A stretch of DNA of 64,000 bases from Bacteroidia bacterium (GCA_022760475.1 JALEFZ010000049.1:1-64000), one strand, 5' to 3'. Shown: positions 2 to 7,022, counted from the first letter of the stretch. Notes: a model not told the origin generated them from the sequence alone. Numbers and translations are program-made.

Positions 2-1927
2 CTGGGAAGGCAGGAAAATGCCTTGAGGGAAGCCAGGAGTATATTGAACTCAATCCCTCGCAGCAAGCGTCAGGACTATGCCATGATGTGTTACAATTAT
101 GCAGGGATTTTGGCTTTGGCAGGAAGATCCTCAGAAGCGATCCAGTACCTGAGACTTGCGCTTGATTATGGATATGCGGACTATGAATGGTTAATCAGAG
201 ACATCAACTTCGGTTCTTTGGTTAAAGATAGAGATTTTACCTACCTGCTTCGTCAATTTGGAATGACCTATATCGCAGGTAACAGAGCTCCTGAAGTAGT
301 TATCATCAATCAGAAAACCAATGATTTCCCACCAAACGGGAATTCTACCAAAATAAAAAGTGGCGCCTTGACCTTCATTGATGACAATGGCAATGGAAAG
401 TTGGAAACAGGTGAGAATGGATATATCACCTTCAAAATCATCAATGATGGACCTGGGACTGCTAGAGATGTTGAAGTAAGGGTAAGAGACCTTTCCGGCT
501 CATACGGACTTAACTTTGCCCGATACACCCTAATCGGAGACATCTACGCCAGAGATACCCGCGATGTGCGGATCAATATTCAGGCGACTGATGAGATGCT
601 GGATGGAAAAGCCAACTTCCAGCTGAGTGTCCAGGATGAGAATGGCTTTGGAACCAACACCATGGAAATCAAGGTTCCCCTGAGTACAGCAAAATCTCCG
701 GTACTGGAGGTAGTGGACCATCACTTTGCTTCTGACATGGGTGGCGTTATGCGCCCTGGTGTTCCGGCCATCCTGAAATTGGCCATCAAGAACCAGGGAC
801 AAGGTACTGCAAATGGTGTATTGCTTGACTTCCTTCTGCCAAAGGATGTGTACACCGCTGGCAATGACAAGTTTGACCTCGGCGATATTCGCCCTGGAGA
901 AAGCAGAATTGTAGACTTCGAGTTCTTTACAAGTAGAAAATATGAGTTAGAGTCTGTTGAACTTCAGGCTTTGATTAAAAATAGCGATAGAACCTACTCT
1001 CAAAAACAGACCTTCATCGTCAAGGTCAACCAGGAACTGGAAAGAAACGACCGGGTTGTGATACGAAATGATGACAGTCCCAAGAATCCCGACATTCCTA
1101 AAGGAGTAGAGCTGGTGTCTGATGTAGATGTAAACCTGCCAAGGACAGGAAATAAGAATCCAAACGCCATCGCCGTAGTGATTGGTAACAGGGATTACAA
1201 CAACCGTGATGTACCTTCGGTAGACTATGCACTGAATGATGCACTGGCAATGAAGAAGTACCTGGTAGAGTCGTATGGATTTGATCCCAACAACATCCTC
1301 TACCTTGAGAATGCAACTCAGGCGGACTTCAATGGTATTTTTGGTACCAAAGATGACCACAAAGCTAGGCTTTTCAACCTGGTTCGACCCAATGTCTCAG
1401 ATGTATTTGTGTTCTACAGTGGACATGGAGCACCTGACCTGGAAAGTGAGGAGGCCTTCTTTGTACCGGTGGATTGTGATCCTTCTTTGGTGAGATTCAA
1501 TGGATACGCCATCAATACGTTCTATGAAAACCTGGCAAAGATTCCTTACAAGAGCATTACAGTGGTGATTGATGCCTGCTTCAGTGGTGCTTCTGCCAAG
1601 GGAACCCTGATCCCGAGAGCTTCTCTGGTAAGGGTTAAATCCAAGCCGAGTACGATCCTGACCGATCCAAAAGCAGCGGTATTCACTTCAGCTACGGGAA
1701 CTCAGATTGCTTCCTGGTATCCTGAACAAAGCCACGGCTTGTTTACCTACTACTTTCTGAAAGGAATTCAGGGTGAGGCAAACAAAAACAGGGATCGCGT
1801 ACTGACTGTGTCTGAAATGAAGGCCTATATTGACAATGAGGTTCCTTATCAGGCCAGACGAATGAACAACAGGGTTCAAACCCCTGAGACTTACGGAAAA
1901 GACGATTCGGTAATCTTTGATTATTAA
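2..1927 (+). CDS. Caspase-like (C14) cysteine peptidase with TPR and CARDB-like domains, 5' partial
   Basis: The reading frame is open from base 2 and runs off the left edge, so the true start is outside the window; residues here are counted from a TTG at 23. Residues ~20-80 look like the end of a TPR/Sel1-like helical region. Two CARDB/Ig-like beta domains follow (~110-220 and ~228-335). The C-terminal caspase-hemoglobinase fold spans ~380-634: it opens with AIAVVIGNRDYNN, has the catalytic His468 in FYSGHG and the catalytic Cys519 in VVIDACFSG. The family cleaves proteins, often after basic residues. The beta domains suggest a secreted or envelope-anchored protein, but the signal peptide would lie upstream of the window. 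It is followed by three exported proteins on the same strand (LPP20-like, DUF4384, transglutaminase-like), which suggests a functional set. Both catalytic residues are intact. Confidence 0.9.
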   Translation: MGRQENALREARSILNSIPRSKRQDYAMMCYNYAGILALAGRSSEAIQYLRLALDYGYADYEWLIRDINFGSLVKDRDFTYLLRQFGMTYIAGNRAPEVVIINQKTNDFPPNGNSTKIKSGALTFIDDNGNGKLETGENGYITFKIINDGPGTARDVEVRVRDLSGSYGLNFARYTLIGDIYARDTRDVRINIQATDEMLDGKANFQLSVQDENGFGTNTMEIKVPLSTAKSPVLEVVDHHFASDMGGVMRPGVPAILKLAIKNQGQGTANGVLLDFLLPKDVYTAGNDKFDLGDIRPGESRIVDFEFFTSRKYELESVELQALIKNSDRTYSQKQTFIVKVNQELERNDRVVIRNDDSPKNPDIPKGVELVSDVDVNLPRTGNKNPNAIAVVIGNRDYNNRDVPSVDYALNDALAMKKYLVESYGFDPNNILYLENATQADFNGIFGTKDDHKARLFNLVRPNVSDVFVFYSGHGAPDLESEEAFFVPVDCDPSLVRFNGYAINTFYENLAKIPYKSITVVIDACFSGASAKGTLIPRASLVRVKSKPSTILTDPKAAVFTSATGTQIASWYPEQSHGLFTYYFLKGIQGEANKNRDRVLTVSEMKAYIDNEVPYQARRMNNRVQTPETYGKDDSVIFDY

Positions 1928-2054
1928 TTCAAACCGAATTTGCACATAAACTCGTTCTTTACCCAAAGCAGAATAAACTGTTTAATTCAAACATAGACTA
2001 TAGTTCGGAGGAAAAGCTCCAAAATTTTAATCAACGACAAATTCAATCAGGAAA

Positions 2055-2753
2055 ATGAAAAGAGTAATCACATTTCTTAGCGTTATTTTGACCCTGGCGA
2101 TCTTGGTACCTGTTCAGGCTCAGGATAAGGAAAACCCTAGAAAACTTCGCAAGGAAGCTGACAGGGTAGAGAAGGTAGCTATTAAGGATATCAAGAGCAG
2201 ATCTGTAAAAGAAGCCCGTAAAGAGGCCAAGCGCCTAAAAAAGCAAGGATATACGGTATTCCCAGGTGCACTGCCATTGGATAAGCAGCTTGAAAAAATC
2301 TGGATCAAGCAGTATGAAGAAAGCCCAAATGGTGCTGCCAAGTACCTGGTTGCAGATGGAAATGGCGTAGGCAAGACCCAGACTGCTTCTGAGATGCAAG
2401 CCATGGAAGCTGCCAAGCTACAGTTGGCGGGTCAGATCTCTAACGAAATCAACCAGATCATCGAATCTAAAATCGTAAACGACCAACTTGATCGTGAAAC
2501 TGGAAACTCTCTGTCCAAGTTCGTAGCCGGTGGTAAAAACTACATCGTTCAGAACCTGACCTATGTACGTCCTGGATTCAAGGTGTACCGCAACATGGGT
2601 AAAAGAGACATGGAAGTTTTCGTGAAGGTATATTACAATGCTGAAGAGGCTTTCGCAGCAGCTGAAAAGGCACTTGAAGCCAAGGCCCGTGCGGACCTCG
2701 AAGAGGAAGCAGATGTTTTGATCGACGAGATCAACCGTCTATTGGACCGCTAA
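2055..2753 (+). CDS. Exported LPP20-like protein of unknown function
   Basis: A 232-residue protein with a clear Sec signal peptide (residues 1-22, cleavage after VQAQ). A Lys/Arg-rich helical stretch (~27-75) precedes a segment with GNGVGKTQTASEMQAM and an Ala-rich helix (~100-140), the pattern of LPP20-type lipoprotein domains, in which a short glycine-containing strand leads into a long amphipathic helix. No lipobox cysteine is present, so it is probably periplasmic and soluble. The C-terminus (~195-232) is an acidic, Ala/Glu-rich coil. It lies 127 bp after the caspase-like gene and 188 bp before the DUF4384 gene. The exact role is unknown; LPP20-like proteins often accompany DUF4384 and caspase proteins, but that link is from family knowledge. 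Confidence 0.75.
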   Translation: MKRVITFLSVILTLAILVPVQAQDKENPRKLRKEADRVEKVAIKDIKSRSVKEARKEAKRLKKQGYTVFPGALPLDKQLEKIWIKQYEESPNGAAKYLVADGNGVGKTQTASEMQAMEAAKLQLAGQISNEINQIIESKIVNDQLDRETGNSLSKFVAGGKNYIVQNLTYVRPGFKVYRNMGKRDMEVFVKVYYNAEEAFAAAEKALEAKARADLEEEADVLIDEINRLLDR

Positions 2754-2774
2754 GCATTGCTTTAAACTAAACTT

Positions 2775-2844
2775 GAAAGGGAAATCGGGGCATGGTATTC
2801 GGGCGATTAGCCCAGGCTGTACCTCCTGTTTCCCTTCTTTTTTT
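2775..2844 (+). terminator. Candidate intrinsic terminator
   Basis: An 8-bp stem (AAGGGAAA at 2777-2784 with TTTCCCTT at 2829-2836) encloses a long loop that itself contains an AGCC/GGCT pairing, and is followed by a run of seven T. It lies 20 bp after the LPP20-like gene. The long loop makes it weaker than a classical terminator. Confidence 0.45.
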
Positions 2845-2941
2845 CAGGCTGGATATGTTAGACAGGGTTTAGGATATTCAGCTTTTTTCGAAATACCTTA
2901 GGTGTCTTGAATAAATACAACAAACAAATTCCCGATTAGTC

Positions 2942-3844
2942 ATGAATAAAATAATTACACTTATAGCCGTTCTGACTTGCTTGAGCCTTTCTGCACTTGC
3001 CCAAAAAGGCCCAAAGGTCAAGAAGTCCCAGGCAGAATACCAGATAAACCTCACCCAGTCAGAGTTCTCTGAAGCGGAAGCCTGTAAGAAATGTAAGGAG
3101 CTGGCCATGGTCAAAGCCATTGAAAAGCAGTTTGGAATAGTGGTGGTTCAGGGCAATACTACATTGATCAAGAATACCACAACAGGAGAGGAAACAGAAA
3201 CTACCCAGATTTTTAATACCATCGCTGAGACTTTTGTAAATGGAGAATGGATAGAAACCTTGGATGAAAGCTGCGAACGATTTGTTTATGAGGAAGAGTT
3301 TTGGGTTAAATGCTCTATCAAAGGAAAAGTCAGGGAATTGACTCAACCAAAAATTGAACTCAAAACCGCTACCTTGAAATGCCTTACTACAAATTGTATT
3401 TCGTCAGATTTTGAGGACGGGGATTCATTTTATATGTACCTTAAGAGTCCCGTAGATGGCTATGTGACCATCTTTATCAGTGATGCTACTACGGCTCAAC
3501 GCCTTTTGCCTTACGCAGAAATGCCAAAAGGCATGATGAATGCTGTGGAAGTAAAGGCTGATGAGGAATATATCCTTTTTTCATCTGCGAAGGACAAGCT
3601 GGACCTGAGAGGCTATGTAGATGAATATGAGCTATACGCAGAGAACGATGTAGACCAAAACAGGATCTATGTCATCTATAGCGAAAAGCCACTTATCAAG
3701 CCCATGCTGTCCAAAAGTGATGAAACGGAGTTTGAAATGCCGATGGAATTGAAATTCGAAGAACTCCAACGATGGATGGCCAAGCAGAAGAGGTACAACC
3801 CAGAAATGGTAGTTTTTCGTGCAGATATTTCAATTAAAAAATAA
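2942..3844 (+). CDS. Exported DUF4384 domain protein
   Basis: A 300-residue protein with a Sec signal peptide (1-20, cleavage after ALAQ). The N-terminal half (~30-130) has a CKKC motif and resembles the glycine-free part of LPP20/FlgT-like alpha-beta domains. The C-terminal half (~150-250) matches DUF4384: GDSFYMYLKSPVDGYVTIFI, then a stretch on LLPYAEMPKG. DUF4384 is a beta-rich domain found in exported proteins and often fused to caspase or serine/threonine kinase modules. Here it is a separate gene between the LPP20-like and transglutaminase-like genes, which supports joint action with the caspase-like protein. The biochemical function of the domain is not known. Confidence 0.75.
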   Translation: MNKIITLIAVLTCLSLSALAQKGPKVKKSQAEYQINLTQSEFSEAEACKKCKELAMVKAIEKQFGIVVVQGNTTLIKNTTTGEETETTQIFNTIAETFVNGEWIETLDESCERFVYEEEFWVKCSIKGKVRELTQPKIELKTATLKCLTTNCISSDFEDGDSFYMYLKSPVDGYVTIFISDATTAQRLLPYAEMPKGMMNAVEVKADEEYILFSSAKDKLDLRGYVDEYELYAENDVDQNRIYVIYSEKPLIKPMLSKSDETEFEMPMELKFEELQRWMAKQKRYNPEMVVFRADISIKK

Positions 3845-3882
3845 TAAGCCTTCGTATAGTTATATAAATTGAAAGATGGGAT

Positions 3883-3900
3883 TCAGCCCTTTGGGGCTGA
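3883..3900. other. Perfect 7-bp hairpin between genes
   Basis: TCAGCCC (3883-3889) pairs with GGGCTGA (3894-3900) around a TTTG loop, in the gap between the DUF4384 and transglutaminase-like genes. There is no T run directly after it, so it could be an mRNA processing or stability element rather than a terminator. Confidence 0.4.
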
Positions 3901-3992
3901 GCAACCCACAACAGTAAAGAATGTCATTTTTTAGGAGGAGGAGCCCCTAATATTCCTCTCCTGCCTTAGAAATCTACAATTGCCCAAAGAAT

Positions 3993-5534
3993 ATGAATCG
4001 CCTAAAAGTAAGTTTAATCCTGTGTCTAGCCTTGCTATCGACAGCCTATGCCCAAAATTGGGAGAAGAAACTGGAGGAGCAAGAAAAAAGAATCGAAGCA
4101 AAAACCAAGGCCCAGCAAGAGCGGGTCGATCTCCGATTTGCCAATCAACTCAAGCGAATATGGCTGCGAAGTGATTTAAAAGAAGGAGAACCCTTACCCA
4201 AAATCATCGAACCAGAAAATCCAAGGGTCTTTGATCCCAAGAAGGATAAAAAGGAGGAGGAAGTGCGCCTAAGGATTTTACCAACCGAAGAGGAGTTTAC
4301 GCCCAAGAGTAAGGATGAAAAGCCCACCCTAAGGATTGCTCCAGTAGAGGAGGTTGAAGAAGAAATTGTGATTGAAACCAAAGAGGAGGTTAAAGAGGAA
4401 ATTAACTTTCTGGGAGCGCAGGCAAATACCTCATACTTTGGTTCCAGTGTAAACTTTCGATATGACCCTGATATGAGATTCTCCCTGAATGGAAGAATCA
4501 CGGAATATAAAATTGGTGAGGCTTGGGAGCGATTGGAAAAGACCGAATATCAGCCCTTGCTTTATCAGATCACCAAGGAAGCCAGGAGAATGAGGCTGAA
4601 TGATTGGGGATTTTGTTTGCTGATAAATGCTGCATCCAAGAAGATTTATCCTTCTGACAAGAATGCTCAAACCATTTTTAACTGGTTCATCCTGTCAAAG
4701 TCTGGCTACATCAGTACGGTAAGTTATGAAAAGGACAGGGTTTTCTTATTGGTGCCTTCGAAGCAGGTAATGTACGGTAAGACCTACCTAAAGGGAAAAA
4801 CTCACAAGCTATATGCTGTTGACTTTGACGGAAATGACCCAAAGGTGAGGGCAGCCAAGGTATTTTCTCATAAATACCCTGAAACTGACAAAGTGCTGGA
4901 TCTGAGCATCAATGAAACTCCACGCCTGGGCAATGCGACCCAAAGGAAGGTCCTTAGCTTCAAATATGAAGGACAGGACTACAAAATTCCGGTGGAAGTC
5001 AACAAAAATGTCATCGACTTTTATGAAAACTATCCATTCCTGGATTTGAACTGGTATATGCGTACGCCACTTTCTCCTGAAGCACGCCGCTCGATGGTAA
5101 GTTCACTGAAGGAGATCATGCAAGAGCTTGAGCCACAAAAGAATCGCAGGACAAAAGAAGAGGAGCAGGTTCATTTCTTGTTGAGATTTGTTCAGAATGC
5201 ATTTGCGTATAAAACAGATGACCAGCAGTTTGGAGGGGAGAAGTATCTGTTTGCAGATGAGACCCTGTATTACCCTTACAGCGATTGTGAAGACCGCTCG
5301 GTACTGTTTTCTTACCTGGTTCGTGAGATTGTAGGACTTGAAGTTGTGGGATTGATGTACCCTGGACATGCAGCAACCGCTGTAAAATTCAATAGGAATG
5401 TTCCTGGAGATTACATCACCTATCGTGGGAAAAAGTTCACCATTTGTGATCCTACCTACGTCAATGCTACCTACGGAATGATCATTCCTGACGTAAGGGG
5501 AAGTGCAGCCAAGGTAGTTGACTTTTCGAGATAA
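3993..5534 (+). CDS. Exported transglutaminase-like cysteine protein
   Basis: A 513-residue protein with a signal peptide (MNRLKVSLILCLALLSTAYAQ, described here by its end after residue 20). A Glu/Lys-rich low-complexity region (~22-140) is followed by a conserved domain and, near the C-terminus, a transglutaminase/protease-like catalytic triad: Cys432 in SDCEDRS, His459 in YPGHAATAV and Asp486 in CDPTYV. The triad is complete and correctly spaced, so the enzyme is probably active in peptide-bond hydrolysis or cross-linking. The start ATG at 3993 directly precedes the signal peptide. It is the last plus-strand gene of the caspase-led set and converges with the DUF429 gene. Confidence 0.85.
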   Translation: MNRLKVSLILCLALLSTAYAQNWEKKLEEQEKRIEAKTKAQQERVDLRFANQLKRIWLRSDLKEGEPLPKIIEPENPRVFDPKKDKKEEEVRLRILPTEEEFTPKSKDEKPTLRIAPVEEVEEEIVIETKEEVKEEINFLGAQANTSYFGSSVNFRYDPDMRFSLNGRITEYKIGEAWERLEKTEYQPLLYQITKEARRMRLNDWGFCLLINAASKKIYPSDKNAQTIFNWFILSKSGYISTVSYEKDRVFLLVPSKQVMYGKTYLKGKTHKLYAVDFDGNDPKVRAAKVFSHKYPETDKVLDLSINETPRLGNATQRKVLSFKYEGQDYKIPVEVNKNVIDFYENYPFLDLNWYMRTPLSPEARRSMVSSLKEIMQELEPQKNRRTKEEEQVHFLLRFVQNAFAYKTDDQQFGGEKYLFADETLYYPYSDCEDRSVLFSYLVREIVGLEVVGLMYPGHAATAVKFNRNVPGDYITYRGKKFTICDPTYVNATYGMIIPDVRGSAAKVVDFSR

Positions 5535-5553: not shown

Positions 5554-6291
5554 CTATGCCCTGTTTCCGTCTGGAGGCAGGGCATAAACTATTTCCATAG
5601 GTAGGCCTTCTGAATCAATTTGTGGATGAACAGGCAGACTTGCCAGGGGAAACTGTCCGGAAACAGCCAGGATCATGGCATCCAGGATGTCATCGCTGGC
5701 AAGGAACTTCCTTGGCCATTTTTTGAGTGCATATTCATGCTGAGTTTCTGCATCGGGCAGGTATTTCTGAATTACCTTTAGGCGAGCTTCTCTCCCTTCC
5801 GCTGTTTTTTTGGAGTGAATCATGGGAGATTGTCCATCCATTGCCCAAAAAGCCACTTCAGGATGACATTCTCTGACGATCCCAATGCTTGAAGGGTTGT
5901 GGCGCATCCACTGGTCTACTTCAGTGATTTTATCCCTGATGTTCCAGGTTTGCTTTGATAGCTTATTACCCATCAGTTCCAGGTTGACATGGCAGGCTTC
6001 TTCGTAGGAAGAGGCATAAAGCGAAGTGCGGCTTGGAATGGGGAATACACTTGAGCTACGATGGGGAGACAGTTTTTTTCTTGCTTCAAACTCACAAAGA
6101 CGCTTTTCCCGATGGGGCAATCCAATGGGAATATCTATGAGAATTCTGTGATTTGCCTGTACAAGCGAAGCAATCGAAGCGAAATTTGGAATTATGTCCA
6201 TCTGGATGGATTGGTCGACATTCAGTTTCACCACAAACCAGCCTGCCTTACATCCATCTATTCCTAAAAAAAGCTCCGGTTTATCTGCCAT
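5554..6291 (-). CDS. DUF429 family protein (predicted RNase H-fold nuclease)
   Basis: A 245-residue cytoplasmic protein beginning with the family signature GIDGCKAGW at residues 10-18, with a further DIPIGLP motif (~52-58) and ECHPEVAFW (~147-155). These are the hallmarks of DUF429, whose fold is predicted to be RNase H-like with acidic residues (Asp12 and the DIP aspartate) as metal ligands. The substrate is unknown. It starts 8 bp after the stop of the acetolactate decarboxylase-like gene and is likely cotranscribed with it and with the gene at 7027-7734, although no functional relationship is obvious. Confidence 0.85.
   Translation of the reverse strand: MADKPELFLGIDGCKAGWFVVKLNVDQSIQMDIIPNFASIASLVQANHRILIDIPIGLPHREKRLCEFEARKKLSPHRSSSVFPIPSRTSLYASSYEEACHVNLELMGNKLSKQTWNIRDKITEVDQWMRHNPSSIGIVRECHPEVAFWAMDGQSPMIHSKKTAEGREARLKVIQKYLPDAETQHEYALKKWPRKFLASDDILDAMILAVSGQFPLASLPVHPQIDSEGLPMEIVYALPPDGNRA
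5555..5586. terminator. Bidirectional hairpin between convergent genes
   Basis: A 9-bp perfect inverted repeat (5555-5563 with 5578-5586) lies just after the transglutaminase-like gene and overlaps the last codons of the DUF429 gene on the other strand. No strong T run follows on either strand. Confidence 0.35.
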
Positions 6292-6299
6292 TAAGTTGA

Positions 6300-7022
6300 T
6301 TATTGATCAACAGAAGAAATATAAAGGCTTACCTGACTTCCATCGAATTCCAGTTCATCCAGATGCCCCATTTGTTTCCTGTCCTTGGAGATCAGGTGCA
6401 TATGGATGTAGGAATCATGGTGGGTATATACTCCCTGGGACTCTTTGGAGAAGAATCCAAGGACATCCCCATCGACATTCCCTAACAAAAAACTTGTCTG
6501 GCCTTTGTGGACTTCTGCCATTGAACCAACAGGTGAACCGGTAGGAAGGTTTTGGACGTGCATGTCAACATGTCTCATTTTGCCAGTGAGTTTGAAGGCA
6601 AATGGAGCTTTTCTATTTGCAGATTTTTGGGTGAGGAGTTCTTCCAGGCCTTTATGGGTCAATTTTTCTTGTGGAAGAGAGACTTCCTCCCATTTTCTGA
6701 TATTGGCATAGACAAGGAAGGGCGCCCCAGAGTCCCACGATTCCGTTACGGTCATGCTTCCATGGCTATCTACCTTTGATACATATGGAATTCCATCCCA
6801 AATCATAAGTTCACCTTTCATAAAGGCATTGGGACCAATAGCATAAAGATTTTCCTTATCTACAATTTGCTCCAAAGCAACCGAAGGGCCAATGGCTCCC
6901 TGGATCATTTCGTGCATGCTTCCAGAAGCCTGGATAAGTTTATTTTGCTTGCTATCTAATGAGTTACAGGAAAATGTAAATACAGCAATGAGGATAAGGC
7001 TTGGGGAAATAAAAAATTTCAT
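6300..7022 (-). CDS. Acetolactate decarboxylase-family lipoprotein
   Basis: A 240-residue protein of the BudA/AlsD family, which decarboxylates 2-acetolactate to acetoin using zinc. The zinc ligands are visible as His207, His209 and His220 (H-x-H then ten residues then H), the spacing known for Bacillus AlsD. The GPNAFMKGELMIWDG segment (~63-77) and the FAFKLTG segment also fit the family. The N-terminus is a lipoprotein signal (hydrophobic residues 1-18, lipobox FSC with Cys19), so this homologue is predicted to be exported and lipid-anchored, unlike most Gram-negative members, which are cytoplasmic. No acetolactate synthase gene is nearby. It follows the secreted protein at 7027-7734 by 4 bp. 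Confidence 0.8.
   Translation of the reverse strand: MKFFISPSLILIAVFTFSCNSLDSKQNKLIQASGSMHEMIQGAIGPSVALEQIVDKENLYAIGPNAFMKGELMIWDGIPYVSKVDSHGSMTVTESWDSGAPFLVYANIRKWEEVSLPQEKLTHKGLEELLTQKSANRKAPFAFKLTGKMRHVDMHVQNLPTGSPVGSMAEVHKGQTSFLLGNVDGDVLGFFSKESQGVYTHHDSYIHMHLISKDRKQMGHLDELEFDGSQVSLYISSVDQ

Follow-up and report, generated by a model that had tools for sequence, protein, structure and literature searches.

Gene content and setting of the locus

The window, by which we mean the whole stretch of DNA analysed, spans the initial 64 kb of contig C6 in a genome (G000) of 6.86 Mb and 96 contigs. Four ORFs lie on the plus strand at its start (2–1927, 2055–2753, 2942–3844, and 3993–5534), and the four consecutive plus-strand genes proposed in an initial annotation are all present at these positions. 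They encode a caspase, an LPP20-like (LPP) protein, a DUF4384-like protein, and a transglutaminase-like enzyme (TG), with the following features:

2–1927, plus strand: orthocaspase (C14), truncated at the 5′ end by the contig edge, with a TPR end, CARDB-like Ig domains, and a C-terminal caspase domain (residues 390–615)
1424–1426, plus strand: codon of the caspase catalytic His475 (SGHG)
1577–1579, plus strand: codon of the caspase catalytic Cys526 (DACFSG)
2055–2753, plus strand: LPP20-like exported protein, 232 aa, predicted SHS2/dodecin-like fold, long basic N-terminal helix (residues 28–63)
2777–2844, plus strand: terminator-like hairpin with T-run (−27 kcal/mol), directly 3′ of the LPP gene
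2942–3844, plus strand: DUF4384-like exported protein, 300 aa, N-domain (residues 26–132) and C-terminal beta-sandwich overlapping the DUF4384 profile (157–250)
3993–5534, plus strand: TG-like exported enzyme, 513 aa, with a Pro-rich spacer between a conserved N-terminal helix (Trp57 invariant) and the C-terminal catalytic domain
5286–5288, plus strand: codon of the TG catalytic Cys432 (DCEDR)
5367–5369, plus strand: codon of the TG catalytic His459
5448–5450, plus strand: codon of the TG catalytic Asp486 (DPT)
5555–5586, no strand assigned: strong hairpin (−24.4 kcal/mol, z = −4.6) between the TG gene and a convergent DUF429 gene

Because base 1 of the window is also base 1 of contig C6, the caspase ORF lacks its 5′ end. 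We searched the same genome with the N-terminus of a relative and recovered the first 177 residues of the caspase from one end of contig C74 (G000:C74:3-533, minus strand), where a signal peptide precedes TPR-like sequence; since the gene is split between the two contigs, their ends are presumably adjacent. A regulator had been considered upstream, but none was found there on contig C74; the gene that precedes this piece is of acyl-CoA synthetase type and has the same orientation. Downstream of the set are convergent genes for DUF429 and an acetolactate decarboxylase-like protein, and neither an integrase nor defence genes were seen next to it. The alpha-acetolactate decarboxylase-like protein (6300–7022, minus strand; E = 7.5e-22) carries a lipoprotein-like signal (FTFSCNS), which is odd for an enzyme that is normally cytoplasmic.

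A promoter/terminator consensus scan returned nothing above chance. The hairpin at 5555–5586 is likely the end of a unit. Given the terminator-like hairpin after the LPP gene, a tight single operon in the window species was dropped; strong and mutually unrelated hairpins also follow the LPP gene in three relatives of the same family (L070, L051, and L071). The set in this family is probably organised as two transcription units (caspase–LPP and DUF4384–TG), or as a single unit with partial read-through. Genes of the set overlap in other lineages.

Two thiol enzymes and their predicted export

The caspase matched Pfam Peptidase_C14 well above the cut-off (E = 8.6e-16, 58.8 bits vs. 21.4), with CARDB (Pfam) preceding the caspase domain and TPR_END found by NCBIfam. 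His475 and Cys526 are invariant in an alignment of 17 caspase sequences, which together with the Peptidase_C14 match bears out the caspase fold with intact His/Cys dyad that had been claimed. Also invariant in this alignment are Asp413 and Asp524, which we take to be equivalent to the metacaspase S1 residues and from which we infer an acidic S1 pocket accommodating a basic P1 residue. The catalytic residues are kept in relatives with rare exceptions, among them an apparent pseudo-caspase (L099 13249–15183) in which Gln and Gly replace the dyad residues and which overlaps an intact caspase by 4 bp.

The front ends of the caspases vary, with TPR and CARDB in the window's family and WD40 or other domains elsewhere. 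The partners do not change with them, and this contrast suggests that each lineage has its own signal or target, which the front end would read. The window's own genome has 11 caspase genes, and the copy on contig C83 is without TPR, CARDB, and WD40. A comparison of the whole-length caspase profile with PDB sequences was set aside, the result being swamped by WD40.

The Pfam transglutaminase profile (PF01841) did not reach its cut-off on the TG (E = 0.066, 13.9 bits vs. 23). The earlier claim of an intact triad nevertheless stands, because Cys432, His459, and Asp486 are invariant in an alignment of 14 TG sequences that includes Bacteroidales. The Bacteroidales TGs have a long C-terminal extension that is absent from the window TG; a match of the TG profile to CylK was due to this extension and was rejected.

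Signal peptides were predicted by a simple heuristic (an untrained predictor) in most members of all four protein families. Such N-termini agree with the initial annotation of all four products as exported or envelope proteins, and we are highly confident that the set is located in the envelope. The NCBIfam T9SS C-terminal sorting domain matched none of the four proteins.

The LPP20-like and DUF4384-like proteins

The name of the LPP20-like protein is upheld by fold and not by sequence profile. Pfam LPP20 did not match even at E = 1, and no convincing Pfam family was found. The AlphaFold model, built from an alignment of the window protein and fetched relatives, is confident (mean pLDDT 91), and its seven best structural matches are all Helicobacter Tip-alpha, HP1454, or Lpp20 (Z 6.5–7.5), with Foldseek probabilities of 0.97–0.98 for Tip-alpha and HP1454. 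Fold matches for this protein and the DUF4384-like one are modest (Foldseek E = 0.005–0.02, Z 7–7.5), in the range where the tool warns of a common arrangement. The signal peptide of the window LPP20-like protein is a plain one that ends in VQAQ; a lipobox is absent from it and present in few relatives. ORFs antisense to its gene were discarded as shadows.

In the long basic helix, Lys or Arg occupies positions 49, 52, 56, 59, and 63 in 92–100% of 50 sequences, and these positions fall on one face of the helix, which is modelled as ordered and not as an exposed loop. Gln115 and Gln144 are conserved as well. The modelled basic face could bind an acidic surface or could itself serve as a substrate.

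The profile match of the DUF4384-like protein lies below the Pfam threshold: DUF4384 (PF14326) matched the window protein at E = 0.0015 and 19 bits against a cut-off of 27, and a relative (L058) at 24.2 bits. Its AlphaFold model, obtained in the same way, has a mean pLDDT of 90. The best Foldseek match of the N-domain is 9hmf_A (probability 0.99, E = 5e-3, rmsd 8.1), a periplasmic scaffold chain of the Campylobacter flagellar motor, and the predicted order of elements (strand-helix-hairpin-strand-strand) is that described for FlgP. The SHS2 fold is common to FlgP, Lpp20, dodecin, and FlgT, and in FlgP the hairpin insert forms rings (PMC12222027). A second list of structural matches for the DUF4384-like model contained mixed beta-sandwiches (Z ≤ 8.1) and named no family. 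Sequence similarity to solved structures was undetectable for either protein, and a profile comparison of the two aligned only the signal peptides and the helix and so gave no support for a common sequence ancestry. Taken at the level of the models, the matches of both proteins to ring- or disc-forming proteins are suggestive.

A second type of DUF4384 protein, of about 500 aa, adjoins or lies near caspases in three scan loci (L090, L097, and L108) and at G005:C1:7.436M, G012:C170, and G000:C79, and represents a further recurrent DUF4384–caspase neighbourhood.

Recurrence of the gene set

Seven further genomes of the family, spread over six other genera, keep the caspase, LPP20-like, DUF4384-like, and TG genes in this order on a single strand (in this count G006 is cut inside the TG by a contig end, and the contigs of G001 and G006 are short). 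The LPP20-like and DUF4384-like proteins were found in the identical 12 of 100 genomes searched. The window's own genome holds a second trio without a TG, again in the order caspase, LPP20-like, DUF4384-like (G000:C83:26584-29184; L057 6582–9788).

A scan with the LPP alignment, using one genome per species, returned 51 loci, by title from Bacteroidota and Chlorobiota. Two loci (L089 and L091) carrying the LPP–DUF4384 pair are titled as the alphaproteobacteria Thalassobius/Thalassovita; they branch among Bacteroidota, which casts doubt on the titles or bins, and mislabelling or contamination of these MAGs is probable. Of 56 LPP genes, 44 had a DUF4384-like gene within 8 kb, 41 a caspase, 19 a TG, and 12 all three; these counts are lower bounds because many contigs are short. 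From caspase density in the family (103 matches in ~83 Mb), a caspase would be expected near about 1 of the 56, a guide value only, as it ignores shared ancestry.

Gene orders in the scan loci are rearranged, mostly on the same strand with short gaps. In 38 cases LPP lies ahead of DUF4384 on the same strand, against one reversal, and the two overlap (−4 bp) in eight; DUF4384/caspase, DUF4384/TG, and caspase/TG pairs also overlap or abut. Bacteroidales show the order LPP, DUF4384, two more proteins, caspase, TG (L100, L102, L103, and L082). One locus (L056) has a caspase–TG pair without the LPP20-like and DUF4384-like genes, four (L061, L077, L083, and L113) have LPP/DUF4384 pairs without a nearby caspase, and TGs and caspases are also found alone, apart from the set. 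On the LPP tree, TG partnership falls in separate supported clades, forcing at least five changes, and several clades are without TG. Distance matrices of the protein families correlate weakly to moderately (Spearman 0.28–0.77).

The distribution of the set is patchy (29 of 395 genomes of the class). Many members of a single genus with small genomes (g60) have the set, and it is usually single-copy; a phylum-wide sample searched with the DUF4384-like profile gave one weak match outside, so that the set is rare in the sampled Bacteroidota.

Two further neighbours recur. An FGE-sulfatase protein (by Pfam on one member) lies directly before the caspase in several Bacteroidales loci (L107 312–1442, L109 3635–4756, L110 6007–7146, L112 5998–7062, and L098 14786–15802), and a subtilase of about 1300 aa lies upstream of the LPP gene in one locus group (L074 5038–8916, L075 3700–7602, and L092 5065–8958).

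The initial annotation would have been refuted by related genomes in which the four genes are apart or vary at random; the set withstood this test, with the order conserved within the family and the same protein families together across Bacteroidota in rearranged orders. Because these families recur together across distant Bacteroidota, they probably form one functional envelope module, and that the four genes belong to a single such module is, in our judgement, very probable. A loose neighbourhood of separately acting envelope genes kept close, for example by shared expression, would fit the terminator-like hairpin inside the set and the solitary TGs and caspases (11 caspase genes in the window's own genome), but we consider it very unlikely given adjacency that recurs after rearrangement, overlapping stop and start codons, and perfect co-occurrence of LPP and DUF4384.

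Discussion

Our best explanation, which we hold tentatively and at close to an even chance, is a proteolysis module of four proteins acting outside the cytoplasm, in the periplasm or at the outer-membrane face. The specific arrangement of a scaffold pair with a gated protease is put forward a little more cautiously still. The LPP20-like and DUF4384-like proteins, both with predicted SHS2-type folds of ring- or disc-forming envelope proteins, would assemble a scaffold, and the caspase would dock on it through its swappable repeat region (TPR and CARDB here, WD40 in relatives), which would also gate it. Once active, the caspase would cut after Arg or Lys. The TG, tethered by its N-terminal helix and Pro-rich arm, would be the other thiol enzyme at that site, where it would process envelope proteins or cross-link them. 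The most likely role of the module appears to be to mature or remodel a surface structure in a regulated way, and not suicide. More speculatively, and rather improbably at present, a ring- or disc-like SHS2-fold platform in the Bacteroidota envelope may recruit and activate the orthocaspase, which with the TG would cleave surface proteins and cross-link them, in an extracytoplasmic arrangement resembling an apoptosome.

The same folds would also suit a simpler arrangement, in which the real product is a FlgP-like ring or disc assembly at the surface, with the caspase and TG only constitutive enzymes that trim or cross-link the scaffold without sensing or gating. LPP–DUF4384 pairs can exist without enzymes nearby, and the basic face and Gln115/Gln144 of the LPP20-like protein could serve as sites for an Arg/Lys-specific caspase or for the TG. 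However, the basic helix is predicted to be ordered rather than an exposed loop, and the swapping of TPR/CARDB for WD40 on the caspase points to regulation; we regard this arrangement as unlikely, if worth keeping in view.

A conflict or regulated cell-death module, responding to phage or competitors from the envelope, is less probable again. Conflict systems typically feature caspases and TPR/WD40 and FGE-sulfatase domains (PMC7159879), an FGE-sulfatase protein adjoins the caspase in several Bacteroidales loci, and the distribution is patchy. The generic PADLOC caspase model matched the caspase (E = 2e-7), but PADLOC gave no match for the TG or DUF4384-like protein and only PD-T4-6 at 15 bits for the LPP20-like protein, a weak match likely due to chance, and no complete known anti-phage system matched the four. 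Described caspase conflict systems are cytosolic, whereas the window set is exported. Its presence in many g60 members, and usually as a single copy, looks like a retained function, and neither integrase nor defence genes were seen next to the window set.

Caspase conflict systems (PMC7159879) and TPR-CHAT/Craspase, which work in the cytosol, have NTPase or CRISPR partners that the window set is without. They resemble the gating proposed here in that they likewise involve a repeat-domain-gated clan CD protease. With prokaryotic orthocaspases and metacaspases (MEROPS C14), the window caspase shares the caspase domain, the His/Cys dyad, and the DACxSG motif (PMC3501461). The 2012 survey of these proteins found TPR and WD40 to be the commonest partner domains, noted some Bacteroidota rich in copies (28 in Haliscomenobacter), and mentioned N-terminal signal-like helices, and its operon section names no such gene set (PMC3501461); unlike the surveyed orthocaspases, the window caspase is exported and lies in a conserved set with SHS2-fold and TG-like proteins.

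The partners likewise have known counterparts. The models of the LPP20-like protein and the DUF4384-like N-domain suggest an SHS2-type fold like that of H. pylori Lpp20, Tip-alpha, and HP1454 and Campylobacter FlgP, but the window LPP20-like protein differs from Lpp20 and FlgP in lacking a Pfam LPP20 match, a lipobox, and a flagellar context. The DUF4384-like protein resembles PF14326 proteins through its weak profile match, the 500-aa type in the same genomes being near caspases too, and departs from them as a sub-cut-off, separate, unfused protein with an SHS2-like N-domain. The TG has the Cys-His-Asp triad of the transglutaminase-like cysteine protease superfamily (PF01841) in the expected order, with its own N-terminal helix and Pro-rich spacer and a score below the family cut-off. 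In the literature searched, with subscription journals mostly outside, we found no paper treating LPP20 and DUF4384 together and no description of an exported caspase set of this kind, and within that scope the suggestion of an undescribed system holds: the components come from known superfamilies, and their combination and location appear undescribed.

The function of bacterial caspases is largely open, and nearly all work has dealt with cytosolic ones. An exported caspase with fixed partners and natural variants (with or without TG, and with TPR/CARDB or WD40) makes the question of function directly testable. If the proposed scaffold is real, the SHS2/FlgP–Lpp20 fold would gain a role as a protease platform, beyond flagella and Helicobacter antigens.
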